The position numbers were made by a program, and so were the translations under genes. A stretch of 64,000 bases of DNA from Eutreptiella sp. 'Long Island Sound 2002'. Taxonomy: Eukaryota; Euglenozoa; Euglenophyceae; Eutreptiales; Eutreptiaceae. This document shows, piece by piece, positions 3,086 through 34,959 of the stretch (its first letter is position 1; every line of letters starts with the position of its first letter). Under the pieces are notes generated by a model, which searched no databases, was not told the DNA's origin, and saw only the letters and a list, made by a program, of their open reading frames with translations. The stretch spans positions 150,430,352 through 150,494,351 of the forward strand of contig OZ038381.1 of NCBI GenBank assembly GCA_964036045.1, read 5' to 3'.

Positions 3086-3189
3086 AGTAAGAAAAAGTGC
3101 TTTTCCAATGCTTTAGGGTATACTTTAGTTGTATAAGAGGTGCTCTAAGCACTCTTGCATTTTTCTCATAGTATTGGCCCAACCAAAAG
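3086..3189 (+). repeat. 5' LTR of A1, left piece
   Basis: Begins AGTAAGAAAAAGTGC, as do the A1 3' LTR (20371) and the A2 LTR (61843, minus). The LTR breaks off after CCAACCAAAAG where TIR-1 is inserted; the uninterrupted LTRs read CCAACCAGAAGGGGTG across the same site. Confidence 0.9.
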
Positions 3190-3212
3190 CTTAGCCCACG
3201 CAAACTGCACCC
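3190..3212 (+). repeat. TIR-1 left terminal inverted repeat
   Basis: Reads CTTAGCCCACGCAAACTGCA then CCC; the reverse complement is at 10027-10049 without mismatch. Confidence 0.95.
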
Positions 3213-3529
3213 CCTTTTGGAATTGAAGGACCTAAAAAATGACCACCCGGAAAACTATTTTCTTTGGACATTTGCAGCACACATGACCCAGCTACCACTG
3301 AAAAAATACAATTTTACCCAATTTGCTGCTTTTTTCCACTTTTTGTTTATCGAAATAAACTATATTTTCTCTCATTTGAAGGGTGTGTTTTACCAATCTT
3401 GTCGTTTTTGTATTTCAAAACCCAACTGGTGCGTGCCTGTTCGGGACCTCATTTTCAAAGATGACATTCTGCGGGTCTCCAGTTGCACCTATGTTTGTCC
3501 TGCGAAATAAGTTGCTTTTTTATGTCCCT

Positions 3530-3553
3530 GAGTGCGCGAGGCTTCCCGCACTC
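3530..3553. repeat. TIR-1 palindrome copy 1
   Basis: GAGTGCGCGAGG/CTTCCCGCACTC; the right arm has two changes from consensus. Confidence 0.85.
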
Positions 3554-3690
3554 AAGGTCACGGAAACAATTGTGTACAGAAGGCAACACAAACAGGACAG
3601 GAAGTGCACAACATACAAACACTGAAATAAGAGCTCGGCAAAAATGTACAAGCCCTTAAGGGCATATAATTGCATTCGCGTCGAAGGCGA

Positions 3691-3710
3691 GTGCGCGAGG
3701 CCTCGCGCAC
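3691..3710. repeat. TIR-1 palindrome copy 2
   Basis: GTGCGCGAGGCCTCGCGCAC, a perfect 20-bp palindrome just downstream of the gene 1 stop. Confidence 0.9.
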
Positions 3711-4692
3711 ACATGACTGCAAAAAGAGGCGAAACACTTGGGTTAATGGTGACTTATTTCTTCTTCCCTCCAGCAACCTTAGCCAACCCGGAACCCAGGC
3801 TTCTTGCCACCGCGCTTGTCCCACTTGGAGAGGCAACGGAACCACAAGACGGCTGGGCACCAGAACGCGAGGGCGGCTTGAACTCTGCACTAGCGGTGGC
3901 GGCAGTCTTCGCTTTCTTCTTCGGCTGTTCCTTGCCAGATTCGGGGCTTGCATCGAAGTGAGCGGCGGGTGCCCGCTTGCGCTTCTGCTGCGTCTCCAGT
4001 ACTTGCTCCATATCCTCTTCTTCTCCCTCCTCGTCGGCATCGTCGTCGTCTGATTCCGCGGGATTGTCCGATTTCTTCTCTTTTCCTTCTGCCTGCTTCT
4101 TGCCGCCGGAGGGGGTTCCCTTTCCGGCTGCAGTACCCTGAGTTGGTACAAGTTTGGCAGTCTGCTTCACCTTGGTTTGCATTGGCAAGGTAGGTGCAGG
4201 CGCAACAGGCTCAGTGTCGTCAGCGGGGACCTCAGTCACGACATCTTCCCGGACAGCCTCTGCATCATGCACCTGCGGGTGCCCTTTGTGCCCTCGGTTG
4301 CTGTCCGAAACCCACAGTGGAATGCCACGCTGAAGCCACTCTTATTGAGTATCCCAAGTTGCAGCTGTTGCTCCCTGCTCCGTCTGATCATTCTCCAACA
4401 TGTACCGCATGATGATTGCATGCTGCAGAGCACCTCCAACGGCATTCCCAAGGTCTTTTTGCTTGTTCGTTGACACAGCCAGAAACGCCACTTTAGTACG
4501 GAGGTCGGACATCGCAATCTTTGCGGCCATGGCAGGCGTGTCGTCCACAACAACCACTGCATCAGAATACCCACTGCCCAAAGAATATTTGTCCAGGTAC
4601 CACAGCACGTGAATCAGAGGCATGAAAGCACCAAGGTTCTTGTTCTGCATCTCTTCGAAATGTCCAGCGGAATACGACACATAGTTCAGCAA

Positions 4693-4789
4693 CTGTAAAT
4701 GTGAGGTATAAAGACGAATAACGGAGCCACCAGTGCGCGAGGCCTCGCGCACACAACGGCATCATAACAGGCGAAAGAAGCAGATATAC
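4693..4789 (-). other. Intron 3 of TIR-1 gene 1 (97 bp)
   Basis: Donor CAG|GTATATCTG, acceptor ATTTACAG|TTG. Phase 0; removal joins ...RWDKQ to LLNYVSY... in frame. Palindrome copy 3 lies inside. Confidence 0.85.
4733..4752. repeat. TIR-1 palindrome copy 3 (in intron 3)
   Basis: GTGCGCGAGGCCTCGCGCAC, perfect, in the middle of intron 3. Confidence 0.9.
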
Positions 4790-5487
4790 CTGCTTATCCC
4801 AGCGACTCGTTGTTCCGAACCACATACAGTGCTCGTCGAACTGATACGTACTGCTGGTCACGGGACCCGATAACCAAGAGTATACCGGCAACCGAACATG
4901 GTAGAATCGCACTGTTGTTGGATCTTTCTCCTTCTTCATACGCCAGAGCCTCTGTATGTCGCGGCCAATACGCTGCACAACATCAGTCTCGCCATAGAAA
5001 ATGACGTCTTTGCCCAGCATCATCACATCGAACAGCCACTTCGGAACAAATCCTGCAGTGTCATATTCAACGAAAAGGTCAGCGTTAATGACCCACAACG
5101 GGTACTGCAGATCCCGGAAACGGGCTGGCAGTTTCTCTCCAATATCATCAATACGGCAGGCAATCAAAGAGAGTTTGCTCCCTTGCTGGTCCCGCTTGGA
5201 GACATTGATCACATCGCCAGTACTCAGCTGTGTCTGTGACGGTGCTGATGACAGTGCCTCAGTCTTCCTTTGCAGTTGTTTCCGCACGGCCAGCGTCTGT
5301 GGTAATGGAGGTGGGCCCTTGTCCCCAGTCCGCCACAGAGGTGCATTGGTCAACGTCTTCCATTTTGGCCACGGCTACCGATACTTCGTACTTGTTGCGT
5401 CCGGCCAGTAACCCCAATTTCCCAGGCCAATCTTATGTTGCGTCGTGCCCAGTGCTGCGACTTCTGCTCGGATCCTCGCATCGGCAG

Positions 5488-5558
5488 CTGTACGGATGCA
5501 AAAGCAGTGGTTGAGTGCGCGAGCCCTCCCGCACTGGAGCCGCGACACTGACGCATAC
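5488..5558 (-). other. Intron 2 of TIR-1 gene 1 (71 bp)
   Basis: Donor GCAG|GTATGCGT, acceptor CGTACAG|CTGCC. Removal joins ...NQTA to AADARIRAEV... in frame. Palindrome copy 4 lies centrally. Confidence 0.85.
5514..5535. repeat. TIR-1 palindrome copy 4 (in intron 2)
   Basis: AGTGCGCGAGC/CCTCCCGCACT; arms less perfect than in copies 2, 3 and 7. Confidence 0.85.
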
Positions 5559-5862
5559 CTGCGGTCTGGTTGACATACTGCTTATTGTCCGGATGGTCAA
5601 GATCGAACATAACCCATTGTTCCGTAATCTGCGCGACAATGTAGTTCTGGGTGGTGCGTAAGGTTGTGTCTTTCAGGTTCATGTGCGCACAGACTTTCTG
5701 CAATAAGCTCGGTAGATGCAGCCCCTCCAGCTTCTTGAAGGCTTTCCTTGTAACTTCCTCTTTCCTGCTCTTAGTCTCCAGGTTCCTCATGCCAGTAACC
5801 GCCTCACGACCGCAATAATAAGCCAGGGAGAAGATGTCCCTCCAAGTCTTGAATGTCGATTC

Positions 5863-5935
5863 CTGCGAGGGAAAACAGTGTCATGGAGTACGCGAGGCCT
5901 CTCGCACTGCAGCCGTGCGATACACGAATACATAC
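5863..5935 (-). other. Intron 1 of TIR-1 gene 1 (73 bp)
   Basis: Donor ACA|GTATGTATT, acceptor CCCTCGCAG|GAATC. Removal joins ...EEAGHT to ESTFKTWRD... and runs straight into the next exon. Palindrome copy 5 lies inside. Confidence 0.88.
5887..5908. repeat. TIR-1 palindrome copy 5 (in intron 1)
   Basis: AGTACGCGAGG/CCTCTCGCACT; one change in each arm. Confidence 0.85.
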
Positions 5936-6865
5936 TGTGTGTCCTGCTTCCTCCAAAGTCTCGGGTGCAAGAAACGCAGAGATGACGGCAGCCTGGACAA
6001 CAGCAATCTTGAACCGCTCAAAATCCTGTGGCTCTTTTTCCCACTTCTGGTCCTCAATGTACAACAACATGTTGTCCAGCGCCTCAGACAGCGGAATCCA
6101 CGTCACAGACTGGCTGCCAGCTTGTTGCAATCCTGCAACCTTGGCCCGGATCCTCCAAGGTGTTTCGTATTTCAGAATGTCAACGTAGCAGAACTCCTGC
6201 CAGTCCTCCAATTCTTTGCCTTCTGCGAGACGCAGTTCCTGAATCTTTCTGCATGTTTCTGTGCCATGTTGACCATTCAGACCGTAAAGTGAGCCATCTG
6301 CAAAGCAAATCACGTACCGAAGCAAAGAGAAGAAACATCGTCGATCGAACGCGAAGCGAGTCATACCACTATCCTCCGACGCCATTACGCGCAACGGTCC
6401 AGCTGGTGGCAGTGCTTGGTATCCCGTCACTTTCCTGGCAACGTCGTCATAGTTGATGGATCGGATCTGTCCGCGCTCTTTGGTCTTGTCAATTCTCAAC
6501 TCAGCAATCTTTACCTTCACGGCTTTACCATTCTCCTGCCGCTGCCACTGTTGCACGTCAACTGTGAGCTTCATCTCTGGTATTGGCTTCTTCTCAGCCA
6601 TCTTTTTTCGTCCTTTCTTCGGCGTGTCCCCTTGGTCGGTCCCTGGTGACGACTCCATGGCCTCTGCGTCTGGTGCTGGACCTTCTGGCGACCCTGGTTC
6701 ACTCATGATGCCCAAAAATACCTAAAGAGGACAAAAGGCATGACATGAAACACGGTCATTTGAACTCTGAAATCAGTCGAAACGGTATTTTGCAGGTCTT
6801 TTTCGCAAATCCGTTCCACAACAGTCTTTGTGGTGACTAATTCCACGGGACTTAGCGAACTACTC

Positions 6866-6887
6866 AGTGCGCGAGACCTCGCGCACT
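6866..6887. repeat. TIR-1 palindrome copy 6 (between the genes)
   Basis: AGTGCGCGAGA/CCTCGCGCACT, in the 249-bp spacer between gene 2 and gene 1. Confidence 0.85.
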
Positions 6888-6922
6888 CATATCGCATTAC
6901 ATACCTGTTTTTCGTAACCTTT

Positions 6923-6944
6923 AGTGCGCGAGGCCTCGCGCACT
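6923..6944. repeat. TIR-1 palindrome copy 7 (between the genes)
   Basis: AGTGCGCGAGG/CCTCGCGCACT, a perfect 22-bp palindrome 12 bp after the gene 2 stop. Confidence 0.9.
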
Positions 6945-6955
6945 GCGGGCGTCAG

Positions 6956-8952
6956 TTACAGCAACTGTTGCCGCACGTTGCGTGTTGCTGCTTCCTGTCT
7001 GTCGGCATCCATGTCTGTTCTCTGCCCCACAACAGCATCCAGTTTCTGTTTTAGTTGGTTGGTGGGACTTGTTTTCTGGTCGATGAGGGCATCTAGTACG
7101 CTGTGACCAAGTAGCCGACAGTGGTTGTAACCAAGGGGTTGTGTAGGTGATGGCGGAAATCTCAGTAACCTCCGCGGCCACGAAGTTGCAACAGTGCTGA
7201 CTCTGTCCGACTCCCATTCCACATAGGCCATGCAAATCCGGTCCGTCGCCAAAAGTCTTGTCAGTCGTTGTCGCATCCTGTGTACCAGCTTCTTGGGAAC
7301 GTTTTGTACCCCCACGTGTTTGCCACCAGGACCAACCTTTAGTAACAAGTAATGGTTTTGCACCTCCTCAACAGTAACAGAACCCGTGTTTCTCGCCTTG
7401 TCCCGCACCAACTTGCTCAGCATCCCTTCTCCAAACCTCTCTGAGTGTGCCTGACCGGGCAGGTCCTGGTGCCACTTGCTGTTGTACAACAATGTGCACA
7501 TGATTGTGCGTTCGTACTTCAGTACGGTGTCACACGGTCCTCGACGCAGCCTCCTCAACAGACACAAACTCAACTGCAACACCTCCTGAGCTCGTGACCC
7601 TGTACCGTTGTTTTCCCGTGACCAGTTGCATTCCCGTACCACGTGGCCCAAGTACAACAACAACGGGCACCATTCCGACAACAAATGCAGAACTGCGTTT
7701 GCCACTGCTGCCCTGTTGGCATGCGCAGACTCACGACCACTGATCGCGGTTGCAGCTTGTGCCTTGCGCCGATACCGGCGTAGTATTCGGGTGTGGCAAG
7801 CATCAGCGCAGCAATATTTTGTTCCATAACTATCAGTTTGGGGTATGATAGTATGGTGGAACCAGGTCGTAGCAAACCTTTCCGTAGGTAGGTTAGAATA
7901 GGCCAGAACACCCGAAAAGTTTGAGTAACAACGAACTTGTAGGCATGCCAGACACCGTAAACTACAGGCACGTAACGTAGGTACGCACGCATGTTCCATC
8001 GTTGGTTCTTGGCACCGTACAACAACTTTAGTATCGTGTAGTGTATGTTTTCGTCAACCAACAGCGGTAGAACTCTGTTTGTCTGTTGTGCTGTGTCCTT
8101 TGCAAAGTGTAACAAGTTTAACAGACCAACGCCACCAGTTACCTCTTCTTTTGACAGGGCAAACAGGCGCCACACCGGTGCCTGCACAGTCCTTGCATCC
8201 CTCCTCACATCCAACGGTGCTCTCACGTTTCCGGTGTCTGGTACACACCCATCTGCATACCCCATGTCGCGCAAAGTCTGGGGGATCATCCTTTCACGCT
8301 GTTGCAGAGCCCTTGCGACTGTCGTTATCCGTGCTGCCAGGTCCTCAATGGCTGGATGTCCTGCCCAATATGTGGGCCTCTGTTTCAGTTGAAGTACTGC
8401 CATTGCAGTACAGTTTTGCGAACGGTCACTTTCGTCTGGGTGTGTCGTGTATTGTGCCCGGTACCAGTTGTCTATCCACAGCACGCAACACGACGAAAGC
8501 AGCAGTGACCACGTTGCTTTAAGTGCTGCTGCTGCCTGTTCGTCCACTGTATCTGCGGCAGCGCCTGCTCTCCCAAGTCGTACTTTTGTTCGTCTTTCTG
8601 TTTGCGTTAGGTACCCTGTTTTGTTTCCCGGTTTTTTCCTTTTTGGTACTGCCCGTTGACGCATCAACAGGTACAGGTTCCAGCCCTCCTGTCGCAAAAT
8701 GCGCACCCAGCACTTGTCCTCCTGCCTTTTAGCTGCTGGTAAACTGTGGCGTGTTCGTTTGTTGGACCTGAGTCGCTGTGCAAATGTTAAAACCAGTTGC
8801 GCCGCCAGGTCGTTTCGTTTGAGTCCTTTCCACAGGTCGTCTGCTGTTTGGTATGCTTGTTCTGCCGCGCATGCCTCTCGTAGTGCTGCTGCTATTTTGC
8901 TTACTGCTGCTATCATTCGATGTGTTACGGATTTTCTGGCTCGAAGTGGCAT
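6956..8952 (-). pseudogene. TIR-1 gene 2: candidate transposase of unknown family, one frameshift
   Basis: Starts at ATG 8952 (MPLRARKSV) and reads to about 7745. A frame offset by one base then carries on to the stop at 6956 (...TRNVRQQLL). Together this is about 660 residues without introns, upstream of gene 1 on the same strand. Seen: a basic, A-rich N-terminus; a central part with LPLLVDENIHYTILKLLYG, VVYGVWHAYKFVV and KLIVMEQNIAALMLATP. These have spaced D, E and H residues of the kind expected in DDE-type catalytic cores. I do not recognise the family, so the transposase role rests on position, size and being the only other gene in a TIR element. The shift near 7745 could be decay; no intron fits there. 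Confidence 0.55.
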
Positions 8953-9421
8953 TTTGCGTCTTTCTCTGTGGAATCAGATGTGCGCAAATATTTTGGTTAT
9001 TGTTTCGCACAGCGATCTTTAACAAAAGTATGTTTGAAAACATCTGGCCTTTTCCTGTCGTCATTTGTGGTGCGCGTGCTGCCGCCGCAAATTGTATTTG
9101 GTGTCTGCGTGCGCTCCGTTCCCAGTAACCGAAAACCGTTTTCGCAACCACAATTTCCTATTCTGTTTCCCTCTTTAAACCCAGTTGGAAAAAAAAACTA
9201 TATCTATCGGGCAGCGAAGGCTACGGCCGCTATTACCACCGGACTCGTCTGCCATTGAGTGGCTGTTGGAAAAAAGCAAATCATTCCCCTGATCCCCTGA
9301 AAATTATGACGAAGGTTACCGATGTATAATTGATTGTCACAGGTGGTAGCCGTGAAAGGGAATGTAAATACCGGCGTGCCTGACCTGACCTGCCTGCTAT
9401 TTCATTTTCTTCCGTCGTTTA

Positions 9422-9443
9422 AGTGCGCGAGGCCTCGTGCACT
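9422..9443. repeat. TIR-1 palindrome copy 8
   Basis: AGTGCGCGAGG/CCTCGTGCACT; one right-arm change. Confidence 0.85.
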
Positions 9444-9605
9444 GATTGTTTCCTTGGGACAATGTTCTATACCTCGTTATATCTGACCAACATGGTGTCT
9501 ACACACACATACAGCGGAAAAATCAAATGTGTTTGTCCGTCTGGTACTGTACCTGCGATTGTACGCGTTGTTTACATCCTGCAAATTCAATACATAACGT
9601 GACCT

Positions 9606-9629
9606 GAGTGCGCGAGGCCTCGCGGACTC
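9606..9629. repeat. TIR-1 palindrome copy 9
   Basis: GAGTGCGCGAGG/CCTCGCGGACTC; one right-arm change. Confidence 0.85.
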
Positions 9630-9830
9630 CGGATGCCTAAATTTGTATTTTATTTTCACTTTACAGTACATGTGTTTCCCCTAACATGGGAAGTCCGACA
9701 GTCATACACTTCCAATGCTCCTTGGGCAACACTATCCTACTTTTAATACCATGTGGGAGCTGCGTATTTCCGCAAACGCCAGTCCTTACGGGTTTTTAGG
9801 TTTTGTGATAAACTCCACTTTGAATATCTT

Positions 9831-9854
9831 GAGTGCGCGAGGCCTTGCGCACTC
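9831..9854. repeat. TIR-1 palindrome copy 10
   Basis: GAGTGCGCGAGG/CCTTGCGCACTC; one right-arm change. Confidence 0.85.
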
Positions 9855-10026
9855 AGAACGCCAGAGAAATGTAAAAAACGTCACATTGAGGAACACAAAG
9901 TTGCGTAACAATAAAAAGGCAATTTATTTCACTACGTCTAAAATCACGTTCATCAAAAATCCAAAAAAATAGTCTTTTTGCCCTGTTGCGAACCGGTCCT
10001 TTTCTGCGCGTTCGGCACGCAAAACA

Positions 10027-10049
10027 GGGTGCAGTTTGCGTGGGCTAAG
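10027..10049 (-). repeat. TIR-1 right terminal inverted repeat
   Basis: Exact reverse complement of 3190-3212, followed by the AAAAG duplication at 10050-10054. Confidence 0.95.
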
Positions 10050-10054
10050 AAAAG

Positions 10055-10743
10055 GGGTGATAACACATTTTGACCTATGGAACCAAACACTAAATCAGGA
10101 TGTGATGTGAACCCCTTTATTCCCAAGCTATAGGCACTAAAACATCTCTTCCTGGGTTGCTGAGGCACTGATATACTGAAGGCAGAGCCTATGAATTTAT
10201 CTATGTTTTCTCATGAGCTATTGGCTATCCTAGTGGTATGCACCCTAGGGGGCTGGGGCACCTCTTATTGAGAGGTCCTGGGTTCAATACCCAGTCAGCC
10301 TAGCTAAGTACGAATATCCCATGTGACATGGCATTGACCTCATCGCCACAAGCCATGCCACCTCAGCAGCTATGGGACCCAAAAAGAAAGAGTTCACATC
10401 TCAAGATGGCACTGTCGATGAGAGTGAGCCCTTGGGGCAGTTTTCCAATCAGTTTTTCTCAAACATGTAAAATATTTCCTCCTGAGTTGCAATGTATGCT
10501 AATTGCTGTGGTCTATTTGTTGATAGCTGTCTTTATCTAAATCTTTGTGACTGTAACCATTCATGCTTTGATCCTGATCTTTTTCTACTTGCTTTTCTCT
10601 GGCTTGGGTTATCCTGGATTGGTTGTATTTCAAGAATAAAACATTTTCCTCATCAAAAACAAGCAGCAGGAACCCTACACCAGCAGCAAGCAGCAGGGAA
10701 GGCACAACAAACACACAGTGTTGAAATCACTATAAACCTTTCT
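10055..10743 (+). repeat. 5' LTR of A1, right piece
   Basis: Continues the LTR after the TIR-1 insertion (GGGGTGATAACACATTTTG...) and ends CTATAAACCTTTCT. The last T overlaps the first base of the primer-binding site. Aligned with 20475-21167 it shows many small differences, so the insertion is not recent. Confidence 0.88.
10223..10300 (+). promoter_or_regulatory. tRNA-like sequence with A-box/B-box inside A1 5' LTR
   Basis: Contains TAGTGGTATGC (A-box-like) and GGGTTCAATACCC (B-box). It can fold a D-arm (CCTAG/CTAGG), an anticodon-type arm (ACCTC-TTATTGA-GAGGT) and a perfect T-arm (CTGGG-TTCAATA-CCCAG). The acceptor arm pairs only partly and the spacing after the D-arm is too long for a normal tRNA. 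It may act as an internal pol III promoter or be a relic of a tRNA-derived SINE. Confidence 0.6.
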
Positions 10744-14884: not shown

Positions 14885-15601
14885 ATGGAGGACAAGATCA
14901 AGCTATTAGACCCGCGGGTGCAGACGCTTATAAGGACCTATCTTGAGGTGTTCGGAGAACTACCCCCTCCAGGCTCATGTGACCAGCTGGTACAGATGGA
15001 CCTCAAGCTGAAACCCGAGTTCGTGGGTCACAAGATCCGGAGGAGACCCTATCCAGCTCCTAAAGAGCAGGCCGACGAGATTGAGCGACAGATACAAGAA
15101 TGTATCGACGCTGGCCTAGTCCTGGAGTACAAGGACGGGGACTACCCGCAACACTGCAGCCCCTGTTTCCTGGTGGCTAAACCTGGGTCTACAGCCAAAC
15201 GGCTGGTAGTGGACTACGGAGAGCTGAACAAGACAACGCTGAACCACTCAGGGTCCATTCCTAATATGGAGTCTACCCTTGAGAAGATAGCCTCCTGTCG
15301 CTACAAGACCAAGATGGACAAGAGGAGCGGATTCTGGCAGGTGGACCTGACGCCCAACGCTCAGGAGCTACTAGCTTTCATCACCCCTCAGGGGAGGGTG
15401 TTCAAGTGGAAGGTCATGCCGTTTGGCGTGGCCAACGCACCCGCTCTATTCCAAGAGCTGATGAAAAAGATCTTGTCCATCCTACGAAGGAGACCTAATG
15501 TGCAGGAACTTATATCCCGTGGGGCCCAGATGGAAGCACACATCGACGATGTATGCCTCGGGACCAATACCCAGGAGGATCACCTAATCCTCTTTGGGTG
15601 A
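14885..15601 (+). pseudogene. pol: A1 reverse transcriptase, N-terminal and palm part
   Basis: Ty3/gypsy RT with the usual opening (VQMDLKLKP, RRRPYPAP, ECIDAGLV), LVVDYGELNK, KMDKRSGFWQVDL, FKWKVMPFGVANAPALFQ and the catalytic box as AHIDDVCLG. The last is unusual, since most gypsy RTs have Y/F-x-DD; C has the same IDDV. The frame is lost at 15599-15601 by a small indel and resumes at 15594 in another frame (EFFAVCQENHTRLKLEKCEF). Confidence 0.88.
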
Positions 15602-17417
15602 GTTCTTTGCGGTCTGCCAAGAGAACCACACACGACTCAAGCTGGAGAAGTGTGAGTTCATGCAGGAGACCATGCAGTACCTGGGGTTTGACGTCCGCTA
15701 TGGGTGGTGGACCCCAGCGGCCTCTAAGGCCAAATCCCTGATGGATGCTAAGGTACGACACAAAGACCCCAAGAAAGGACTTCATGATGTACGCAGTTTC
15801 ATTGGGGCGTGCAACTTCTATCGCCGCTATATCAAAAATTTCACCTACACCAGCGCCATTCTGACGGACTTGATCAAGAAGAGTACTACTTGGCGCTGGG
15901 GCCCACAAGAGCAACAAGCGTTTGAAGAGCTCAAAGACAAGGTGGCCAACGCTAAGTGCTTGGGCGTGCCTAGGGCACAAGGGAAGATTATCCTGGTGAC
16001 CGACGCCAGCAATGTAGGCGGTCGTCGAACGTTGTTCCAACGGCAAGCACTAGAGAACGAGGAGTTCGACTCGGCTCTTTCCCAATGGGGGACTGAGGGT
16101 CTCAACCGAGATGCAACTCTCAAGCACAGCTACCCTGATGACAAGTGGGTCCTAGTACCCCTCGGCCACTGGAACTGGAAAAGGAACCAGGCCAGGGGGA
16201 ACTACTCCACCTATGAGCAGGAATTGCTCGCGGGTATGCTGGTGCTATCCTCTCAGGCACGACTGTTGGGGAGTAGCCCTGTGGTCTGGCTGTGCGACCA
16301 AGAACCGGTCCGCACTTTCCCGAAGGGTCCCCCACCTGAGAAGGCCAAGCTACGGCGCTGGTGGGCCTACCTCAGCCAACTACGGCTGACGGTACACCAT
16401 ATCCAGGGAGTGAAGAACGAGTGTGCAGACTACATCAGCCGCAACAACTTCGACGCCCTGATTGGTGCCCGGTCTGAAGCGCTGGCTAAGGAGGCGTTCA
16501 GCCGTATGGACGTCCACTTGGACCTCAACATGACTATGATACGCCCCCTGGCTGGATTCCAACAATCGGAGTACCTGAAGGAGTTTCGGGATATCTACAA
16601 GTGCCTGGAGAAACGCCTTGAACCCCTCCTGGTCAACCAAGATCAGTGGAAGAGGGACAAGAGCTACCTCTGGCACGAGGACCGCATCGTGGTACCCAGT
16701 GACAGAGTCCCAGCGCTGCTGAAGTGGACCCATGAGTCCAGCGGTCATTTCGGTGCTGACCGTACCCTGAGGCTATTCAAGCAGTGGTTCCACACTGCGT
16801 GGACTGACGACCAACTGCGGAAAACCCTCCAGCCTATCGTTGATAAGTGCCCGTGTAGATCCTGCAAACCAGGGGATATCAGGGAGAGGGGTCTCTACTC
16901 GACCCTGCCCATCCCCGACTGTGCTAATAGTGTTCTATACGTGGACTACACGCAGATGCCGAAGTTCGGGTGCTATGACTTCGCGATCGTGGTACCCTGT
17001 GGGTTGACCAGGTTTACCAGGGTGTTTGCATGTACCAAGCACATTACCGGGGAGGAGACTATCAAGATACTCTTGGAGGAGTGGTTTCGTGTCAATGGGG
17101 CGCCCAAGGAGATCAACTCCGATGAGGATGTACGAGTGCGCTCAGATACCGGCTTGTATAAGAGGGTCCTGAGATCCCTCAATGTCCAGGTGTCTACGGG
17201 GATACCCTACTCTCACACGAGCAACCCCCTATGTGAGCGACAGATTCTTGTCCTCAAGGAGAATGTAAGGATATGGTGCAAAGCTGAACGCACCAGAGAC
17301 TGGGTGAGACTACTCCCCGTCATATCTTTGATGATGAACTCCCAAGAGAGTTCGGCTACTGGCTACTCGCCCCATGAGCTATTCCTAGGGCGCCAGGTGT
17401 GGTTCCTACATGCCTAA
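15594..17417 (+). pseudogene. pol: A1 RT thumb, RNase H and integrase core
   Basis: RT thumb/connection (KCEFMQETMQYLGF, RSFIGACNFYRRYI). RNase H with LVTDASNVGG, TYEQELLAGMLVLSS, WLCDQEPV and ECADYISRNN, giving the D-E-D-D set. Integrase zinc finger HESSGHFG...CPCRSC. Catalytic core: VLYVDYTQ, NSDEDVRVRSD and NPLCERQ, the third acid being E. The second block SDEDVRVRSD differs from the common SDNGxxF pattern but is shared with C. An in-frame TAA at 17415 ends the frame; protein-like sequence continues after it. Confidence 0.88.
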
Positions 17418-20370: not shown

Positions 20371-21167
20371 AGTAAGAAAAAGTGCTTTTCCAATGCTTTA
20401 GGGTCTACGGTAGTTGTATAAGAGGTGCTCTAAGCACTCATGCATTTTGATCTTAGTATTGGCCCAACCAGAAGGGGTGATAACACATTTTGACCTATGG
20501 AACCAAACACTAAATCAGGATGTGATGTGGACCCCTTTATCCCCAAGCTATAGGCACTAAAACATCTTTTCCTGGGTTGCTGAGGCACTGATATACTGAA
20601 GGCAGAGCCTATGAATTTATCTATGTTTTCTCATGAATTCTTAGCTACCCTAGTGGTATGCATCCTAGGGGGCTGAGGCACCTCTTTCTGAGAGGTCCTA
20701 GCTGGGTTCAATACCCAGTCAGCCTAGCTAAGTAGCAATATCCCATGTGACATGGCAGTGACCTCATCGCCACAAGCCATGCCACCTGAGCACCTATGGG
20801 ACCCAAAATCAAAGAGTGCACATCTCAAGATGGCACTGTGGATGAGAGTGAGCCCTTGGGGCAGTTTTCCAATCAGCTTTTCTCAAAAATGCAAAATATT
20901 TCCTCCTGAGTTGCAATGTATGCTAATTGCTGTGGTCTATTTGTTGATAGTTGTATTTATCTAACTATTTGTGACTGCAGCCCTTCATGCTTTGATCCTG
21001 ATCTTTTTCTACTTGTTTATCTCTGGCTTGGGTTATCCTGGATTGGTTGTATTTCAACAATAAAAGATTTTCCTCATCAAAAACAAGCAGCAGGAACCCT
21101 ACACCAGCAGCAAGCAGCAGGAGAGGCACAACAAACACACAGTGTTGAAACCACTATAAAACCTTCT
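20371..21167 (+). repeat. 3' LTR of A1 (797 bp)
   Basis: Begins AGTAAGAAAAAG and ends ACCTTCT. Intact, and shows the empty TIR-1 site near 20465-20475. Followed by the target duplication CCCTCC and the resumption of X1. Confidence 0.92.
20643..20724 (+). promoter_or_regulatory. tRNA-like sequence in A1 3' LTR
   Basis: Same fold as at 10223-10300. The anticodon-type loop is TTTCTGA here and the variable part has four extra bases. The T-arm GGGTTCAATACCC is unchanged. Confidence 0.6.
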
Positions 21168-23624: not shown

Positions 23625-24143
23625 CTTGCCCTGATGCCCAATACATCATGTTGTGCGGCACACTTGAACTCAATTATTGAAAACCGCTTGATTGAACAAG
23701 TCTCAGGTTTCTAACTGACGTGTGGCTTAGCTACTTTCAAGTTGATGTCCGAATGCTTCAATGCCTTGACACCCAAAGAGACCCACGCCCACACCATAGT
23801 TGAAAAGCAGCCTCCGGTTTGGAGTTCTATGCGAAGCGCAGTTCACTGATTGTGTTACAATGTCTCTGTTTTTTGTTAACTTTTTTCACCCGCAGCAAAG
23901 CGTGCACAATCGGGCTAGCACCACGGCCAATTGCTACAAAGCGGCGTTGGCCATCTAGCTTCTACAGAAATCGCCCTCCTTTTAGGGCCCTACGAAGGCT
24001 CTTCTGATCTTCCGTTGTATAGCTCCACAAGTAGTCTTTGGGCCGAGTCCTTGGTAGAGAGCCCTGCACCAGAAGCTGCAATCTCTTCTTCAAGTCTTTT
24101 TTCAAACTTCTCTGGTGTACCTCCAAAGTTGCTTACACGTGGC
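23625..24143 (-). other. Unassigned segment with minus-strand exon-like frame
   Basis: Between X1 and B1. On the minus strand an open frame runs up to the B1 junction and ends at a stop at 23992-23990 (…KFEKRLEEEIAASGAG…LLVELYNGRSEEPS). If B1 and one TGGC copy are removed it continues into 37321-37339, just after a good acceptor (TTTTACTCTCAG). This may be the last exon of a disrupted gene. The product is not recognised. Confidence 0.4.
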
Positions 24144-26500
24144 TGAAGCCGGTTCGGACCCCCGTGGCCATCTTGGGGTCACTTGGGGTGTGTATCTATG
24201 TGCCGGCAAGCCGCCATTGGCTGATATCATACTCTTCCATCCACCTGACCTAACCCGATGTGATAGTGTGATAGGTTGGGCCATTCCGGCTATGAGCGGC
24301 CATATTCAGTACCGAGGCACCGCCAGCAGAGATTTATATATCGGAATATCAGGAATCAACAGGGTTTTATTATCATAATGTTTCCGTAATTTTTCAGCCT
24401 TTCGTTCTGATGGTCAATGTATCGGCGACTGTCAGTTGGCTCGCGATTTTGCGTTAACTGATTGGTTAACTGTTATTTCCAGATATTTTGGCGGATATTC
24501 CGTTGAAGGGTCAGATTTCATCAGCAAAGGGTTTGTTGCATCCGCAATTCTCTAAAAAAAAACTGGAAATTTTAATCAGAATTTTTCGCGATGTCGCAAT
24601 CGGATTTTCGACTTCGACATCGCCGCACTTGATTTGGACTTCTTCGAGTGGTCGTACTCTTTTCCCTATGCCTGAATCAGGTTTCCCTTATACTTGCCAC
24701 CCATTTGACTTGGAGATATAAGGGAAACAAAAGCGAATCGTGGGACCACTTTGAAGAGCCATATCTACGAGCGAGTGTGAGGAAAGAGAATAGGGAAGGT
24801 TGGGTTGGAACTGCCTTGGTCTCAACTTAATTCAGGAAGCATCAAACGCTTTTGGTGTGCACACATGCCTGATATAGCAAGGGATAATGGTCAAGAGGGT
24901 ATAAAGTGATATATAACTCTTGGACCGTGCAACCGAACACTTTATTGTGACTTTCGAGTGTACCGCATGAGTGTTGGGGTTGCATAGCAACTTTCCTTGG
25001 GTTCCTACGTATTTTTAACGTGAAGTTATGTCAATGGAGGGACATGGCATATCATGGTGGGAGCCATATTTTGAGGGTATGTGTTGTATGCATGGTATAT
25101 GTATGATATACTCACGCCCATGTTATATATCTTCGTGTGGCCGAAGAGAAGGGGAGCCATACGTGACAAGGGCTTTGCCCATGTCCCAATTGTGGAATTC
25201 AAAGCGCTAGACCAAGTCTACCGCGTATGTATTGCTCATGGTATGTTTGACAAAGAGATCCATGGGTGCACTCCCATTTTGATGGGGCATGTAGATATTA
25301 GTGGCGAAGGTATCTCCATGCGCCTGATTGGGGATCCAAGTGGGGGAATTGTTCGCAAATGGTTTCAATCGTTTGTGTATTGAACCATGAGCGGATATCA
25401 TGGGCGAGCATAGAGATATACTATCATGACAACTTTGTATTTGGTCATATTTTCATGTTTTTGACCTCAATTGTTGCTCATTTTTGCGTTTTGTGTACTC
25501 ACTTGGTCAGCAAACAGCAAGAAACCTATGGAGAGTCGAACCATGGCATGTTGTTCATATGCTGGCATATGCTATGGAGTTGAACACCACCATATGCCGG
25601 AGCGCGTACTCCATTTGGCTTGGCGCACGAAGGATTATAAGAATGGGTCTCAAGATCATGGGCTGACTTGGGCAGTGCGTGGCGCCCATATCCGAAAGGG
25701 TTTCGAGAGTAAAATGGGGATGTACATGGGCATTGGTCTTTGGTCTCTATCCTCCATGAATACTAGACTTCGATTCCATGCATGCTTTGAGCCTTCGGAT
25801 AAGTAGTAACTTCAATTTTGAGCATATTTTTGATATCTGGCCAATATGGTGTGAATTGGCAGTTTTTTGGCATGTTATGAGTTCAAACTCATAGGTCATT
25901 TCTCCAAGCCCAATCGACTCCAAGTCCAACCAAGGTTATGTCAGGGTAGGGTATGGTCCTGAGTGCCACTCTAGGCCATGACACGCCACCTCCCCCATTG
26001 GGCTAGGATTTAGAGGCTTGGGGGTGAACACATGTTTGGGGTTTGTGTAGTGACTTTTGATACATGGCATTTAACCATCTTATTGGACTGGGTTCAGGGC
26101 ATCATGTTGGTGAGTCAAGGGAAGGTCTTGAGTCCAGGGAATGAGGGGTCTATGGCTGTGATTGTGTAAGTTTCCATCCTTCCCCAACTTTGCTTTCTTT
26201 GTGTTCATATGCCAATTTCAGGGCTTTCTTCCTTGGTGCAATTCTTGTACATGCCCGCCACCGTGGGAATACCGGTGTACTGAACGAAAGCCCGCAGCCT
26301 GATTTGGATTGTGAATTGGGTTATTGCTGTATTTGTGGGATCTGGTTGCCATTCAGGGTTGAAGGAGGATTTTATTTTCTATATTTTTGGATTTGGAACC
26401 TTGGATTTTGATAAATGCAATCGTTGATCAGGAGCAAGTCAGCAGGGGTTACTGGCGGAAGGGGCACAGCGGGGGCCGGTCCTGGTAGGGACCTTCTTTA
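24144..26500 (+). repeat. 5' LTR of B1 (2,357 bp)
   Basis: Begins TGAAGCCGGTT and ends ACCTTCTTTA, directly before the PBS. Contains a TATA-like TTTATATATCGG near 24330. No tRNA-like sequence was seen. Confidence 0.95.
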
Positions 26501-29500
26501 TGGTAGCAGAGGCTTACCTGCTGCCCCTACCTACCGCCGACCCGGGGACTTGGGCCCTTATCAGCCCTGCCCAAGTACGCCCCGGGTGCGTATTGTGGAC
26601 TCGGTGGAGACCACGCCGGAGATTGGAGCCATAGAAGGACCGAGACGTTCAAGAGCATGGCGAACTCCGGAAGTAGAAGCCCGAAGAGAAGAACGACACT
26701 CGGGAAGAGGAGGACGTGACATGGAGGACCTGGTCTCCATGTGTGAGCGTCGCTGCCGAAAGGCATGCAACCTCCGCTCCGCCGCGGAGGACTCTGATGG
26801 GGCCTGCCATTCAGGCAGCAGTGGAGGACGGGCCCGGCGCTACCGGAAGCGCGGGTCACCCAAGTCCGCGGCAAGGGACGCCGGGGCTATGGACACGGAC
26901 CCCAGCCCGGTCAGGCTGTGGGAATCCGAGGGTCACTCCGAGGGCTATCGGACAGCCCACGAGCCACCTTCGGATCCGGAGATGTCCGCGCCGATCGCCA
27001 GGGCGCATACGGCCCCCGAGCCCGCCCTCCAGCACGACGCCGAGGGCTTGGAGAGGCCAGCAAGGGCCCGGACGGCACCTGTGCCCCGGCATACGGGACC
27101 TGAGACGGACGCCATAGGCGATACGCCCATGGGCGATGAGTCCGAGGCGCCGAGAACCGCGGGATGCGCTGGATCAGGCGGACAGCACGCCGCGTGCCAC
27201 TGTGAGCACGTGTCCTTCCTCATGGGCAAGTACCCGAAGATGGGGATGGACGCCATCGTGCGTCACCTTGACCGCCTGGACAACGCCAAGGACGCTCTAG
27301 AGGAGGACGTCGCGGGGATCCTGGACGACCAGTCGGCCGCGGAGAACCACATGGAGGAGCTGCGAGCGGATCAGGCCCGGTACCGGGAGAATCTGGAGCT
27401 GGCCCTGCAGAAGCAGCAACAAGTGGTGCAGTGGTGGAGAGCCTCCTCCACTTAGTGGAGGACATGTCGGGACGCCTGAGAAGGCTAGAGGAGCGACAGC
27501 CCCTCGCCTCGGGTCCGGAGCTCCCGGCAAAGCCGGCCGCGGTAGAGCTGGTGGAGCGGGTTAAGACCCTCAGGAGCGCCATGGAGAAACCCATGGGCGG
27601 CCCTGCAGAGGCACCCTACGCGCCTCCGCGTGTTGACCCGGGTGCGCTGCCGTATGTTCCCCTGTTCAGCGAATCCACAATGCTCGGGGAACACACGGCA
27701 CCGCCTGGGTCCATGCGGGAAGGGCACGTGACCACGGACCCGAGGAGCCTGACGGTACAGATGTCCCATGCCGCCCAGGATGTACCGCTCACGACGAATA
27801 TGCCAGTCTATGCGGAAGAGAAGATCGAGATCCAGAACCAGACCATGCAGGGGCGAACCATGGGAAGCGCCGACGGACATGGTCGAGGCCATCCAAGCGG
27901 AAACCTGTGGGCGAAGGATCCCAATACAGGGATATGGACGGCCGATGGGGCAAATCCTTCCCGCATTCCAAACCCCATGGGTTCAGGCCCAACTGGACCG
28001 CACTCCATGGAGGAGAGGGATGTACGGGGAGTGTACTCACACCCCCCGGCCACAGGTGGTATCCGTCTCGGTGGAGTGGTCGCTGGAGACGTCGGAGACG
28101 CCATCACGATTGACGACCTCAGGGGAATCAAAATCCCCTATTACGACGGGAACCCGTCCAACCTGGATGACTTCATCCTGGACTGGGAGGACTTCGCCGA
28201 GGAGGTCGTCGGCGAGATGCGGGGAGCGCCGCGGGACAAGTGGGTATGCCGGACATTCCCACACGGGCTGGCGCAGGACCTCAAGGAGGAGCTGCGGGAT
28301 CAGATCCGGGAAGGATTGATCCGCACGGAGCAGGCCTGCCTCCAGTGGCTGGAGGATGAGGAGCGGGTGGACGCTCCGAATCAGAAGCTGGAGGACCTGT
28401 GGTCCATTCCACTGCCGCTGGACCGCGGTGAGTTGCGGGTCCGGGAGTAGAACCGGTATCTGCGGAAGTACCGCAGATGCCTCAAGCTGGTGGAAGACTG
28501 GAACGAGGCCAGTGAAATCCGCCACTTGCTGAAGGACGTCCTCCCCAGCAACTGGAAGAGGCGAGTGGAGGACGAGGAGAAGAAGCGCGCCAAGAAGCGG
28601 GTGGCGGTGCGGATCATGGCGGCGGAGGATACCCATTCGGGTATCATTGAGTTCTTCAGGAGGAACCTGGGCGAACCCAACCGGATGTTGGGCCTGAAGA
28701 AAGCCGTGTACGTGGAAGTATTTTGGGACTCCATGGGGCAAAGGTTGTTGCGCCTCAACAACGTGGAGTGGAGGCGCGGGGAGCCGCTGAGGATGCAAGT
28801 AATCTTCGCCCGCATGAGCCTGGACGAGATCGTGAGGTACATCACGGTGGAGTTGAAGCTCAATGCGAAGAACGAGGCCCACGTGCAGGATCGACATGGT
28901 CATGGACAACTAGGCCACCGAGAAGACTGCCATCATCGGGAGATCCAGGAAGACACGGCCAACTCCGCGGAGGATGGTAGTGGAAGTGGGCAGGACCACT
29001 GGTCCCGGGAGGATCACGAGGAGGCCCATTTCTTTGCGTTTGTGGCGCACAACGTGAAGAACAATCGGCAGGATCGGTCCAGATGGAACCGGGCGGGACC
29101 AAGGGGCAATGAGCCAAGGAGGATTGGGAACCCACCGCTCTCATTCCGGGAGTACAGGTCGCAGCATGACGGGTGCTGGGTCTGTTATGGCAAGGGAAAC
29201 AACCATACACACGACCACCGTCAGTGCAAGGTGTATGAGGCGGACAAGGAGGCCTACTTCGCCGCTCACCCCGAGAAGAAGCCCAAGGAGCAGCGGATTT
29301 CCGATTGGAAGGCGAAGGGCGGAGACGGGGGAAAAGGCCAAGGCAAAGGCCAAGGAAAAGGTGGAGGAAGAGGCTATGGTGGTGGACCTGGCCAAGACCG
29401 ACGAGTGAGGTCGATCGAGGAAGTTGCTGAGGACATGTTGAGGACGTTGGAGGAACTCAAAGCCCAGCAACGTGGTGGACAAAGTCCTGGCGGATCGCAG

Positions 29501-29530: not shown

Positions 29531-30970
29531 AGGAGCCCCGACGGGAGTGGGACCTCGGAGGTCTCTCATCCGAAAATCAGTGGAATCCCTGAGAAAGCAA
29601 AGGCACATCGGGTGCCAAAAAAGGCTCCGGAAGAGCCAAAACCACTGAGTTTCGCCACTCCCAACCCCTGGAGCGCCCTGCCAAGGGAAGTACATGTGGG
29701 TACGGGACATGGCAACAAGGAAGGAGCGACCACGGAGAGCCCCGTGGACGGGCAGGACCAACCCAAGATCTACACCATCCGTGACCATACCCTTGAAGTC
29801 CTGATGCACCCGTACGTGCTAGAGTTGCATGCCGTGAGAGTCGTCCATACACCTCATGGCGACGAGCGGCAGTTGCACTTGAAAGTGCGAGTACGGTGCG
29901 GACGAGAGGAGAAGGTGGTGGATGTGTTGGTGGATACGGGTGCCCAGGTGAGCCTGGTCCGGAGAGGGTTGTTCAAGGAGGAACTCGTGCAGCCCAGCCG
30001 TAGACCGGTACGCCTGAAGGTCGCCAACGGAGAGATCATGGGTGGGGGCACCCATGAGGCCACTATCAGTATGGAATTCTGGGAACATGAGCGCTTGAAC
30101 CGCCCTGATCAGGCGAAGAGAAGCACTCTATCCGGGAACTTCTATGTGGCCGACATTACTGATTGGGATATGATCATGGGGTATGACTTCATGGTGGCAA
30201 ATGCCATTGGAGCCCTTCCCCATCGTGCAACGCTGGTCCGGGAGGATGATGAATGCCTCACATGGCTGTCCACGGACTATGCATGCGGATCATCCCAATG
30301 GAATGCTGAGGAAGAGGATCGGATCGTCCAAGCGGTGCAAGCTGTGGGTGCCAAGTCCAGAGGAGACCGTGGAGCTCAGCTCACGGAGTATGGAATGGCG
30401 CCGCAGGTGTATGCCAGGATGATCCAGACGCTGGGAGCCGAAGCGCCCGAGACGGACGTCTTCGCTTCCCGGGATGCCCCACTTTTGCGGAAGTGTAGGA
30501 GGCATTGGCATCGAGGAGACTCAGCCTGGCACAGGCATTGGGGTTTGAAGGAGTGGGGACCCATGTATTGGCATGGCTCCCTGGACAATACCAGACGTAC
30601 GGTGGAGAAGATCATCGCGGATAGGGCGAAGGGGATCCTGGTCATAACCGGCATAGGATCCACCCCATGTCCGCTGGAGGGTCTCAAGTTGACGCTGGAC
30701 TCCATCACCCTGAACGAGATGTCATTCGGGCCAGAGGAGGAGTTGTTCATCGACGCCAAGGGTGTATCAATGCCCTCCCCGGGTCAAGCGTGGGGTACCA
30801 AGGCTTTCCTGGCCGATGGGGCGCAAGCCCAGCCCACGGGTGATGAAGCATTCATCCGTAGGGTGGAGGCGGTGCCCATGAAGGTCATGTTTGAGCCCAA
30901 GGAGGGGACGGATCAGCCAATTGATGGCATTGACGTCCTGTCCCAACTACATGCGGATGGGGATGCATGA
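29531..30970 (+). pseudogene. B1 protease and degenerate methyltransferase-like domain
   Basis: Follows gag in the same frame after a single TAG. Protease motif VDTGAQVSLV near 29932-29962 and DMIMGYDFM near 30168. After it: ETDVFASRDAPLLRKC, then a region in the place of the NPPF motif that reads MYWHGSLDN, a hydrophobic strand GILVITGIG and a C-terminal P-W region. The order matches the Dam-like domain of A1 and C but the catalytic motif is gone. The frame ends at 30968-30970; RT continues after a +1 change near 30960. Confidence 0.65.
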
Positions 30971-33653
30971 CTGTGTGGCAGCCAAGAAGAGGCGGGCCAT
31001 GGTCACATCTCCGCATTGGTGGGATGACAAGATGTTGGTCACCGGCAAGTACGAGAAGGATGAGTTCGTGGCGAGGGTCATGGACCACATCGCGGACCAA
31101 TACGATGGTGCGGTTGGGTCGGACCCACCAACGTGGGGTTTTCCAAGAGTGGGAACCGGTAGCAACGAGAACCAGCCCGAGGCCGCAAATTTTCGAAGAT
31201 TATCGGTGGGAAGCGCGCCCCACGACGATGAAGACGGCATATCGGACGAGGAGAAGTCAGACTCGGACCCAGAAGAGGCCTATACCGCAGTGCGGTCGGT
31301 TGTATCGATACCGAAGCAAGCGGCTGAAGAGGCCCAGGAGAACCCGAAGGTTGCCGAGCTGAAGGAGAGGCTGATCAAGGCCTATCCGCGGCTATTCAGT
31401 GGCGTGGCCAACAAGAACCCTCCAGATCGTGGGAGGTTTGGTACAGCGAAGATCAAGCTGAAGCCGAACCCGAGGATCTATCGTCATCGGGAGTACCAAC
31501 TTCAGGGCGATCGGGCCGAGGCCATGAAGAAGCTGTTGGCCGAGTTCATTGAGCGGGGATGGATCGAACCCTCCGACAGTGAGTGGGCCAGCCCAGCCTT
31601 CATCGTGCCCAAGAAGGAGAAGGGCGAGTGGAGGTTGGTGGTTGATTACAGAGGTTTGAACGAGCAGACCGAGCACGACCCGTACTCGCTTCCCCTGATC
31701 GACTCCATCCTCCAAAAGCAACAGAAAAAGCGGATTTTCACGGTGTTGGACCTGAAACACGGTTACCACCAGATGCCGCTACACCCGGACTCCAGGCCCT
31801 GCACAGCGATGTCGACGCCGCTGGGGCCCATGCAGTGGAAAGTGGTGCCTATGGGCGCCAAAAATGGCAACGCCGCTTTCCAGCGCATGATGGAGGACCT
31901 ACTCGGTCCTGTCCGGGACTGTGCCGATCCCTTCGTGGATGACATCATCATCGGGTCCGGCACGGAGAACATGACTGAGGACGAGCTCATCGACGCGCAT
32001 GAGAAGGATCTGCGCCGAGTGCTCAGCGAGTTGGACAAGCACAACATGGTGTGCAAGCCCACCAAAGCCTCACTCTTCGTGAAGGAAGTGGAGTTCGCGG
32101 GTCACGTGGTTGGTCACGGGCAACGCCGTCCCATTCTTGGGAGACTGGCGTCCCTGCACCACTGGGAGAAGCCCCAGACCATCAGCGAAATCCGGTCCTT
32201 CATGGGGTTCTGCAATTACTATTCGGGCTACGTCCGGATGTATGCAGAACTCTCGGGGCCGCTGCACAAGATGCTGCAAGTGGGCAAGTTCGATGGCCAG
32301 AAGAGGGGCAAGAAGAAGCTTGCCTGGACCCCTGAGGCTGAGGATGCGTTCAGGCGCCTGAAGGAGCGACTCCTGGGGCAGTTGGGGCTATTCCTGGTGG
32401 ACCCGGACAAGGGATTCGTGCTACGGACAGACGCCTCGGACTATGCTGTGGGGGCAGTCCTCGAGCAAGTCCGGGACGACGGGACTCATGTTCCCGTGGC
32501 GTTTTGGAGCAGGATCCTGGCCGAGGGCCAACGCCGAACATGGACCGCGAGGGAGAAGGAGACATACGCCATTGAATGTGCGCTGAGGAAGTGGTCTGGC
32601 CACATCGGACTGCAGCCGGTGGTGGTTTGCACGGACCACCAGTCCCTACAGAGCTGGCACAAGGAGCATGTCGACACCCCCTCAGGACCAGCGGCTAGGA
32701 GGGCCCGATGGCACGAGACGTTCGCCAAGTTCGACCTCAGCGTCGTATACGTCCCGGGGAAGGACAACACTGTGGCAGATTGCCTCAGTCGGTGGGCCTA
32801 CCCCGCGGGCAAGGCTTGGATGGACATATCCAGCCATGGCGACGCCGAGGAGACCGAGGAGGCCAAGCGCATCATCGAGATGGAGAAGGTCATGGAGCAG
32901 GAGGGGGTCAAGTGCTTTGTGGTGATGGCAAACCGTACGGACCTGGCCAAGTTCCGGGGTACCCGCGTCCAAGCTATTCGACAGGAAACGCTCGAGCAAT
33001 GGATGGTGGCCCCTGTAGAGCTAGTCAGGTCGGTGCTCACAGAGGACTGGTCGGATGACTACGCGGCATCCGAGCACTGGAGCAAGTACTGGAATGCCGT
33101 GAGCGCCCCGTCGGACGACGAATGGCCCGAGGGCTTGACCGAGGATGGGGACAAGTTGTTCCTCAAGGACAAGCTGCCCGTGCCCGAGAACCGAGTCGAA
33201 GAGCTCATTGACCATTGGCACAACGCCCAGCTCATGTACCCTGGCCGAGACAAGATGCAGCAGGACTTGGAGTGGCGTTTCAAGTTCCCTCCGGGGTACT
33301 ACGCCATCCTGGATAGGTACTGCAGCGACTGTGCCGTGTGTCGGGCCACCAAGAGCCCCAACCACTCCACAGCGGGCAACCCGGTGTACACGGCTATACC
33401 GGAGGCCCCTATGCGGTCCGTTGCCATGGATGTATTCGCCATGCCTGAGGTCACCGTGGAAGGAGAGACCTACGACTGTGTCATCCTGGCGGTGGATAGG
33501 CACAGTGGGTATATCGTGGCGGTCCCTGGCAAGAAGTCCAAGAAGAAGGACAAGAAGGACAAGCATGGAGTGGGGCTGCAGGCCAAGACCGTCGCTAATG
33601 CCATGATCAGGCATTGGCTGACGATTTCCCGATGTCCCGGCTGTCATCTGTAG
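30891..33653 (+). pseudogene. pol: B1 reverse transcriptase, RNase H and integrase N-terminal half
   Basis: A long, well kept frame of 920 codons; the meaningful part begins near 30960. RT: WRLVVDYRGLNEQT, FTVLDLKHGYHQMPL, MGAKNGNAAFQRMM, FVDDIIIG, GHVVGHGQRR, FCNYYSGYVRM. RNase H: LRTDASDYAVGAVL, YAIECALRKW, CTDHQSLQSW, KDNTVADCLSRW. Integrase: zinc finger H…H…YCSDCAVC, first catalytic D in VAMDVFAMP. The frame is lost at 33651 just before the second catalytic D (CSDRGSQF), which lies in the next frame. Confidence 0.93.
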
Positions 33654-34948: not shown

Positions 34949-34959
34949 GAGAAGGGGGG
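34949..34959 (+). promoter_or_regulatory. B1 polypurine tract
   Basis: GAGAAGGGGGG abutting the 3' LTR. Confidence 0.88.

Follow-up and report, generated by a model that had tools for sequence, protein, structure and literature searches.

Why should every intron of a gene inside a transposon carry the same short palindrome? The question is raised by a 64,000-nt stretch of contig OZ038381.1 of the euglenophyte Eutreptiella sp. 'Long Island Sound 2002' (called here the window), in which a DNA transposon holds two predicted genes, gene 1 and gene 2, together with ten copies of a 22-bp palindrome, three of them within the three introns of gene 1. We consider it about an even chance (probability roughly 0.5) that this is a two-gene transposon of the cut-and-paste type whose dimeric product binds the ten palindromic sites, and that such sites are tolerated only in untranslated DNA. 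The element, its ends and the corresponding empty sites are located as follows.

3190-10049, no strand assigned: DNA transposon, entire insertion, 6860 bp (terminal inverted repeats, target-site duplication and two empty paralogous sites).
3190-3219, plus strand: left terminal inverted repeat, starting CTTAGCCCACGC.
10020-10049, minus strand: right terminal inverted repeat, pairing with the left end.
3185-3189, no strand: left copy of the target-site duplication AAAAG, present once at both empty sites.
10050-10054, no strand: right copy of AAAAG, recognized by comparison with the empty sites.
20371-21167, plus strand: empty paralogous site 1, 92-94% identical to the flanks of the element.
61057-61843, minus strand: empty paralogous site 2, 81-84% identical to the flanks of the element.

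When the window is compared with itself, an uninterrupted host repeat recurs at 20371-21167 and 61843-61057. The end of the left flank and the start of the right flank share five bases; the insertion therefore covers 3190-10049, with a 5-bp duplication, AAAAG, which reads AGAAG and AAAAG at the two empty sites. The terminal inverted repeat (TIR) is 30 nt long, joins 3190-3219 with 10020-10049 at 28 of 30 complementary positions (93%) and has the sequence CTTAGCCCACGCAAACTGCACCC. Both features that characterize Class II (TIR) elements, terminal inverted repeats and a target-site duplication (TSD), are present; the ends of the insertion are those of a TIR DNA transposon, and its borders are exact. 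The initial annotation, which had placed a DNA transposon at these very positions, is thus confirmed by the inverted repeats, the 5-bp duplication and the two empty paralogous sites. It had also drawn a comparison with CACTA elements; membership in that group is rejected on account of the ends, which read CTTAGCCC and are not of the CACTA type, and by a TSD of 5 bp rather than 3. A cut-and-paste mode may be deduced from the insertion, its ends and its duplication. As a separate observation, the host repeat (20371-21167, 61057-61843, 10050-10743) contains a stretch, GGTTCAATACC, which by eye resembles a tRNA-type B box, and the repeat is perhaps related to short interspersed nuclear elements.

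The palindrome, AGTGCGCGAGGCCTCGCGCACT, was found in a scan of the whole window at ten places between 3531 and 9853, each with 0-2 mismatches.

3531-3552: copy 1, left subterminal, 2 mismatches.
3690-3711: copy 2, 42 nt beyond the stop of gene 1, 1 mismatch (T22>A, as in copy 3).
4732-4753: copy 3, inside intron 3, 1 mismatch.
5514-5535: copy 4, inside intron 2, 2 mismatches.
5887-5908: copy 5, inside intron 1, 2 mismatches.
6866-6887: copy 6, inside a predicted intron in the 5' untranslated region (5'UTR) of gene 1, 1 mismatch.
6923-6944: copy 7, perfect (0 mismatches), with the gene 2 stop on one side and the donor of the predicted 5'UTR intron on the other.
9422-9443: copy 8, upstream of gene 2, 1 mismatch.
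9607-9628: copy 9, right subterminal, 1 mismatch.
9832-9853: copy 10, right subterminal, 1 mismatch.

Together, the ten 22-mers are 94.5% identical to the perfect palindrome (12 mismatches in 220 positions), and the next best 22-mer in the window differs from it at 6 positions. When the element was shuffled with its dinucleotides preserved, none of 300 shuffles contained any 22-mer with 4 or fewer mismatches. Half-sites with up to 2 mismatches number 44, against 18.0 expected from shuffles of the window. The claim that one and the same palindrome occurs ten times therefore holds for ten near-identical copies within the element, but only the copy at 6923 is perfect and the other nine are not. 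The mismatches are unevenly distributed: right arms have nine and left arms three, and three of them fall at position 16.

Two copies lie between the left end and the gene 1 stop, three between the gene 2 start and the right end, two in the intergenic region before gene 1, and three in introns. All ten are thus outside the predicted coding sequence, in agreement with the original claim that every copy is in a non-coding part; if sites fell evenly, the chance of this would be about 9e-6, with 4706 of 6860 bp taken as coding. Each of introns 1, 2 and 3 of gene 1 contains one copy (5887, 5514 and 4732, respectively), again as first described. Since the meaning of this arrangement depends on the introns, we turn to gene 1, a minus-strand gene whose four exons span 6706 to 3754.

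5936-6706, minus strand: exon 1, from frame and codon scoring.
5863-5935, minus strand: intron 1, 73 nt, GTATGT...CGCAG, the weakest donor of the set (7/9 of the consensus).
5559-5862, minus strand: exon 2, leave-one-out score +0.10 in frame.
5488-5558, minus strand: intron 2, 71 nt, GTATGC...TACAG, from frame and splice borders.
4790-5487, minus strand: exon 3, from codon scoring, with an in-frame TAG at 5375-5377.
4693-4789, minus strand: intron 3, 97 nt, GTATAT...TACAG, from frame and splice borders.
3754-4692, minus strand: exon 4, from codon scoring, with an in-frame TAA at 4342-4344 and the stop at 3754-3756.

The exons were scored by codon usage with each exon in turn left out of the training set and without use of the palindromes. 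In the joined frame, exons 1-4 score +0.19, +0.10, +0.16 and +0.18 bits per codon, and the other five frames are negative. With training limited to exon 1, a sliding scan agreed with the proposed frame across exons 1, 3 and 4. Across exon 2 it stayed close to zero and favoured no frame, and only the proposed frame is free of stops there. The frame of exon 1 remains open across intron 1 until a stop at 5804, so that the case for intron 1 is made by the frame of exon 2 and by the splice sites of the intron. Introns 1-3 have the GT-AG borders of spliceosomal introns, and their removal restores the frame. The description of short introns (71-97 bp) with GT-AG borders has consequently stood, at 73, 71 and 97 nt, now with coding-frame scores that are independent of the palindrome. 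The continuous frame of 904 codons stood in part: the phase is kept throughout, but the frame is not open, being interrupted by the TAG and the TAA listed above. An altered genetic code, in which TAA and TAG encode glutamine, would open gene 1; no other use of such a code was seen, and the stops are taken as decay. Exon 1 (5936-6706) also contains an NGQH stretch that may resemble ParB/sulfiredoxin-like domains; the Pfam and NCBIfam scans gave no match to such domains.

A fourth intron, referred to as intron 0, is predicted in the 5'UTR of gene 1.

6722-6904, minus strand: predicted intron 0, CAG/GTATGT ... CTCTTTAG, 183 nt, from donor score, with the acceptor chosen by eye.

The 434 GT sites of the minus strand were scored against a 9-base donor consensus (MAG/GTATGY, with M for A or C and Y for T or C; drawn partly from the known introns), and the two highest scores belong to the donor of intron 2 and the one at 6904. 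By the same measure, the intron 3 donor scores 8/9, as does an unrelated site at 7877, and the intron 1 donor, at 7/9, is tied with other sites. The palindrome at 6866 comes 17 nt after the CAG/GTATGT at 6904, and a sequence resembling an acceptor, TTGTCCTCTTTAG (TTTAG), ends at 6722, 15 nt ahead of the gene 1 start codon. The copy at 6866 is therefore probably intronic as well, as judged from these splice-like signals. The initial count of two copies between the genes remains valid for 6923, but with 6866 probably inside intron 0 it may have to be read as one plus one. The predicted intron also includes a second, longer hairpin (6768-6845, minus strand), and much of the low folding energy of the intron comes from it.

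The distribution of the copies suggests that the palindromes are binding sites for a protein of the element, which spread where its genes tolerated them. The account that we prefer begins with the insertion of a two-gene DNA transposon, now slightly decayed, into a host repeat. A dimeric DNA-binding protein encoded by the element, its transposase or else the product of gene 1, would bind the 22-bp two-fold symmetric sites. Binding near both ends would assemble transposition, and binding ahead of both genes would regulate gene 1 and gene 2. The sites would have multiplied within the element, at least partly through the duplication of stretches exceeding the palindrome, and would survive only where untranslated, which is why, within gene 1, they would sit in introns. 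The introns would then be permitted seats for the site, with splicing independent of the palindrome. The initial annotation offered three readings, namely that binding sites spread into introns, that introns were acquired as palindrome-bearing units, or that hairpins aid splicing. The first of these is the best fit to copies that are confined to the element within the window, occupy subterminal, intergenic and intronic positions, avoid coding sequence and bear little sign of selection at the RNA level.

The candidate transposase of this scheme is the product of gene 2.

6956-8952, minus strand: gene 2, about 665 codons, candidate transposase, from open frames, with no intron or palindrome seen.

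Its frame shifts around 7700-7760. An intron as the cause of this change was considered and rejected on the basis of two GT...AG pairs picked out by eye from 7734 onwards, whose removal would take away 22 or 39 nt and leave the frame unrestored. With two in-frame stops in gene 1 and a frame change in gene 2, this copy of the element is somewhat decayed. Relatives were sought in viral contigs, where pattern scans matched at most 12 stretches (1, 12 and 1), none of them a relative by tblastn, and in contigs of prokaryote genomes, where a pattern scan matched 4 stretches, none a relative.

Several observations weigh against binding sites that are simply tolerated in non-coding DNA. No binding protein was recognized, and the profile scans of genes 1 and 2 gave weak and incoherent matches. 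Across the two genes, the best Pfam match was CDC45 at E 0.82, which is not credible, and a further Pfam scan gave none; PHROGs returned families of unknown function at E 0.052 and 0.065; and the NCBIfam matches, at E 0.018 and 0.085, were far under the cut-offs. The best hit of a PDB sequence search, 1rty, was weak (E 0.005), and single-sequence structure models of a 460-aa open reading frame (ORF) of gene 2 and of a 300-aa ORF beginning with gene 1 exon 1 gave no usable fold, with a mean predicted local distance difference test score of 36.9 and 34.4, respectively. A second copy of the element was not seen, and the functional interpretation is drawn from this one. The flanks of the palindromes also offer limited evidence of how the sites multiplied: an unanchored local test of 190 flank pairs found nothing beyond chance (best p 0.0037 per pair), and the best single gapped pair was not significant (family-wise p 0.0575). 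Placement raises a further difficulty. Given that all ten copies are non-coding, all three introns would be occupied with p 0.012, and with intron 0 included p falls to 0.0055, the fourth intron having been picked after its palindrome had been seen. The association of palindromes with introns thus exceeds mere avoidance of exons only modestly, but because a site in every intron is somewhat more than non-coding placement leads one to expect, introns may be special as seats for the palindrome. In addition, the 2.5 kb at 6945-9421, mostly gene 2, is free of palindromes.

An introner-like origin would explain this occupancy. According to this alternative, which we regard as possible but on balance unlikely, gene 1 acquired each intron together with its palindrome when non-coding DNA of the element was copied into the gene, an event that the repair of a gap left by excision could, for instance, bring about. 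In the three introns, as in the predicted fourth, there is a single palindrome apiece, at 17-36 nt from the donor, and gene 2, which has no intron, has no palindrome either. The donor-side flanks of introns 1 and 2 are alike, with 19 of 30 ungapped positions identical (family-wise p 0.0035, 30 nt being the best of six lengths tried). Over lengths of 8, 12, 16, 20, 25 and 30 nt, the family-wise p is 0.68, 0.14, 0.11, 0.10, 0.03 and 0.008, under a null that allowed overlapping samples. In gapped comparisons of introns 1 and 2, the donor side gives p 0.0145 with the first 6 nt removed and the acceptor side 0.0725, both being uncorrected members of a set of six. The copies at 3690, after the gene 1 stop, and 4732, in intron 3, share the substitution T22>A, found in no other copy, and are 85% identical over 47 nt, palindrome included. 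On the other hand, intron 3 cannot be aligned with introns 1 or 2 (p 0.50-0.89), and six of the ten palindromes are outside any seen or predicted intron. When the ends of the gene 1 introns were compared by eye, neither terminal repeats nor TSDs were seen, the only shared sequence, and so the sole possible target duplication, being the CAG of the splice site. The copies at 3531 and 5514 have G16>C in common although their flanks are unlike, so that one and the same change can occur on two occasions, and three introns are too few to settle their history. The idea of introns acquired as palindrome-bearing units thus keeps the likeness of introns 1 and 2 and the substitution shared by 3690 and 4732, but is opposed by intron 3 and by the ends of the introns. 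In its fullest form, in which introns were born from the transposon itself, its palindrome-bearing non-coding DNA being copied into gene 1 so as to make introns and add binding sites for its own protein at once, we find it doubtful.

The same flank data can be accommodated by binding sites that multiplied inside the element. The flanks are mostly unrelated among copies; in a palindrome-anchored test, three pairs stand out: the right flank of 3531 with the left flank of 6923, the donor sides of introns 2 and 1, and the right flanks of 3690 and 4732. Summed, these top three pairs give p 0.0075, which fits the duplication of short units. The pattern hints that some copies moved in units longer than the palindrome, and the shared flanks of introns 1 and 2 are a further hint that palindrome-bearing units were duplicated.

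A selfish nature of the 22-mer, as a small palindrome spreading by itself with the transposon merely as its host, is quite unlikely. Unrelated flanks around most copies would be expected of such a sequence, and the palindromes of Volvox carteri organelles are, in the accessible part of PMC2670323, mostly restricted in the same way to intergenic DNA and introns. Outside the element, however, the window contains nothing with fewer than 6 mismatches. The 20-mer core is absent from the viral contigs, and 5 prokaryote contigs have it at a single place each; these collections exclude the host genome, and the five matches are taken as chance.

The proposal that the palindromes act as hairpins in the pre-mRNA, joining splice sites or controlling splicing and 3' ends, appears improbable. 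It would account for a copy in each intron and for one shortly after the stop of each gene, and hairpin-forming inverted repeats are reported at the ends of Amoebophrya introners (PMC7789003, from the portion available). The hairpin is part of the minimum-energy folds of introns 2 and 3, and some copies lie in well-folding sequence: the stretch 6765-6904 of predicted intron 0 (140 of 183 nt; z -4.37), 3531 (-6.39), 9832 (-2.72) and 6923 (-2.44). In contrast, shuffled sequences fold as well as introns 1-3 do (z 0.13, 0.40 and -0.16), the minimum-energy fold of intron 1 lacks the hairpin, and the copies at 3690, 9422 and 9607 reach only -0.65, -1.33 and -0.90. All 12 substitutions among the ten copies break a pair and none is compensated, and copies are also found in subterminal DNA beyond any gene model. 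The suggestion that hairpins aid splicing is weakened by these results, and an RNA-hairpin function in introns 1-3 is unsupported. As the hairpins of introns 1-3 are not unusually stable and 0 of 12 substitutions are compensated, the palindrome more probably serves as a DNA-level site recognized by a dimer than as a splicing hairpin, with too few changes to be firm. Finally, it is barely plausible that the palindromes serve the element as marks for chromatin or DNA methylation, which the product of gene 1 would recruit or write. Four CpGs per symmetric 22 bp and the possibly ParB-like NGQH stretch of gene 1 speak for this; the Pfam and NCBIfam scans gave neither a ParB nor a methyltransferase match.

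Beyond the transposon, the window contains other mobile DNA. Two direct repeats of 2363 bp (24141-26503 and 34957-37319) are 97.8% identical, and ORFs between them (30882-34494) match reverse transcriptase and RNase H and, weakly, integrase; a Ty3-type retrotransposon that is still young, with these repeats as its long terminal repeats, is the probable source. RNase H and integrase-type matches also mark two more retrotransposon regions (14936-16525/54496-52920, 15588-17414 and 52280-53923), which are 69% alike at the DNA level. An inverted pair of GC-rich repeats (21168-22656/51540-50102) is 82% identical over 1.5 kb, with up to 77% GC per kb. Five patterns for relics of dinoflagellate spliced leaders had 0 matches in the window.

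If the sites bind a protein of the element, this locus presents a DNA transposon with binding sites throughout its gene, for which introns serve as permitted places. If introns and palindromes arrived together, it would let the birth of introns within a mobile element be seen directly, and any further copies of the family in the genome would be replicates of that process. Among the literature matches listed, consisting of titles and the starts of abstracts and including few subscription papers, there was no report of a transposon whose own introns carry its repeat.

Several known systems nevertheless resemble it in part. CACTA/En-Spm transposons have subterminal transposase-binding repeats, CACTA-type ends and a 3-bp TSD. 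Like them, this element has TIRs, more than one predicted gene product and one short motif repeated towards both ends; unlike them, it has ends reading CTTAGCCC, a 5-bp TSD and a motif that is a 22-bp palindrome, also present in introns and between genes. TSDs of 5 bp occur in Transib and in some hAT groups of DNA transposons. The element shares with these the combination of TIR and 5-bp TSD, whereas its terminal sequence differs from the ends known for them and no transposase domain was recognized in its genes. Relatives in kind are described in the accessible parts of PMC10666404, as well as in those of PMC9860276, PMC7789003 and PMC2670323; a transposon bearing its repeat in introns of its own appears in none of these parts. 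Introner families, as given in PMC9860276, have a TSD in 49 of 130 cases and a TIR in 72 of 177. The introners of that source and of PMC7789003, so far as these portions tell, are similarly short introns that share a unit, occur in a context of mobile DNA and contain hairpin-capable sequence; here, in contrast, two of three introns are alike, no intron TSD or TIR is seen, and the unit is also present in non-intron DNA of the transposon. In Volvox carteri, according to the available part of PMC2670323, palindromic repeats form about 80% of the non-coding DNA of the organelles and are located in intergenic DNA and in introns of groups I and II, with one exception in mitochondrial DNA. The confinement to intergenic DNA and introns is the feature held in common, while the palindrome described here has ten copies, as far as seen in a single transposon, and is seated in introns of the GT-AG type.

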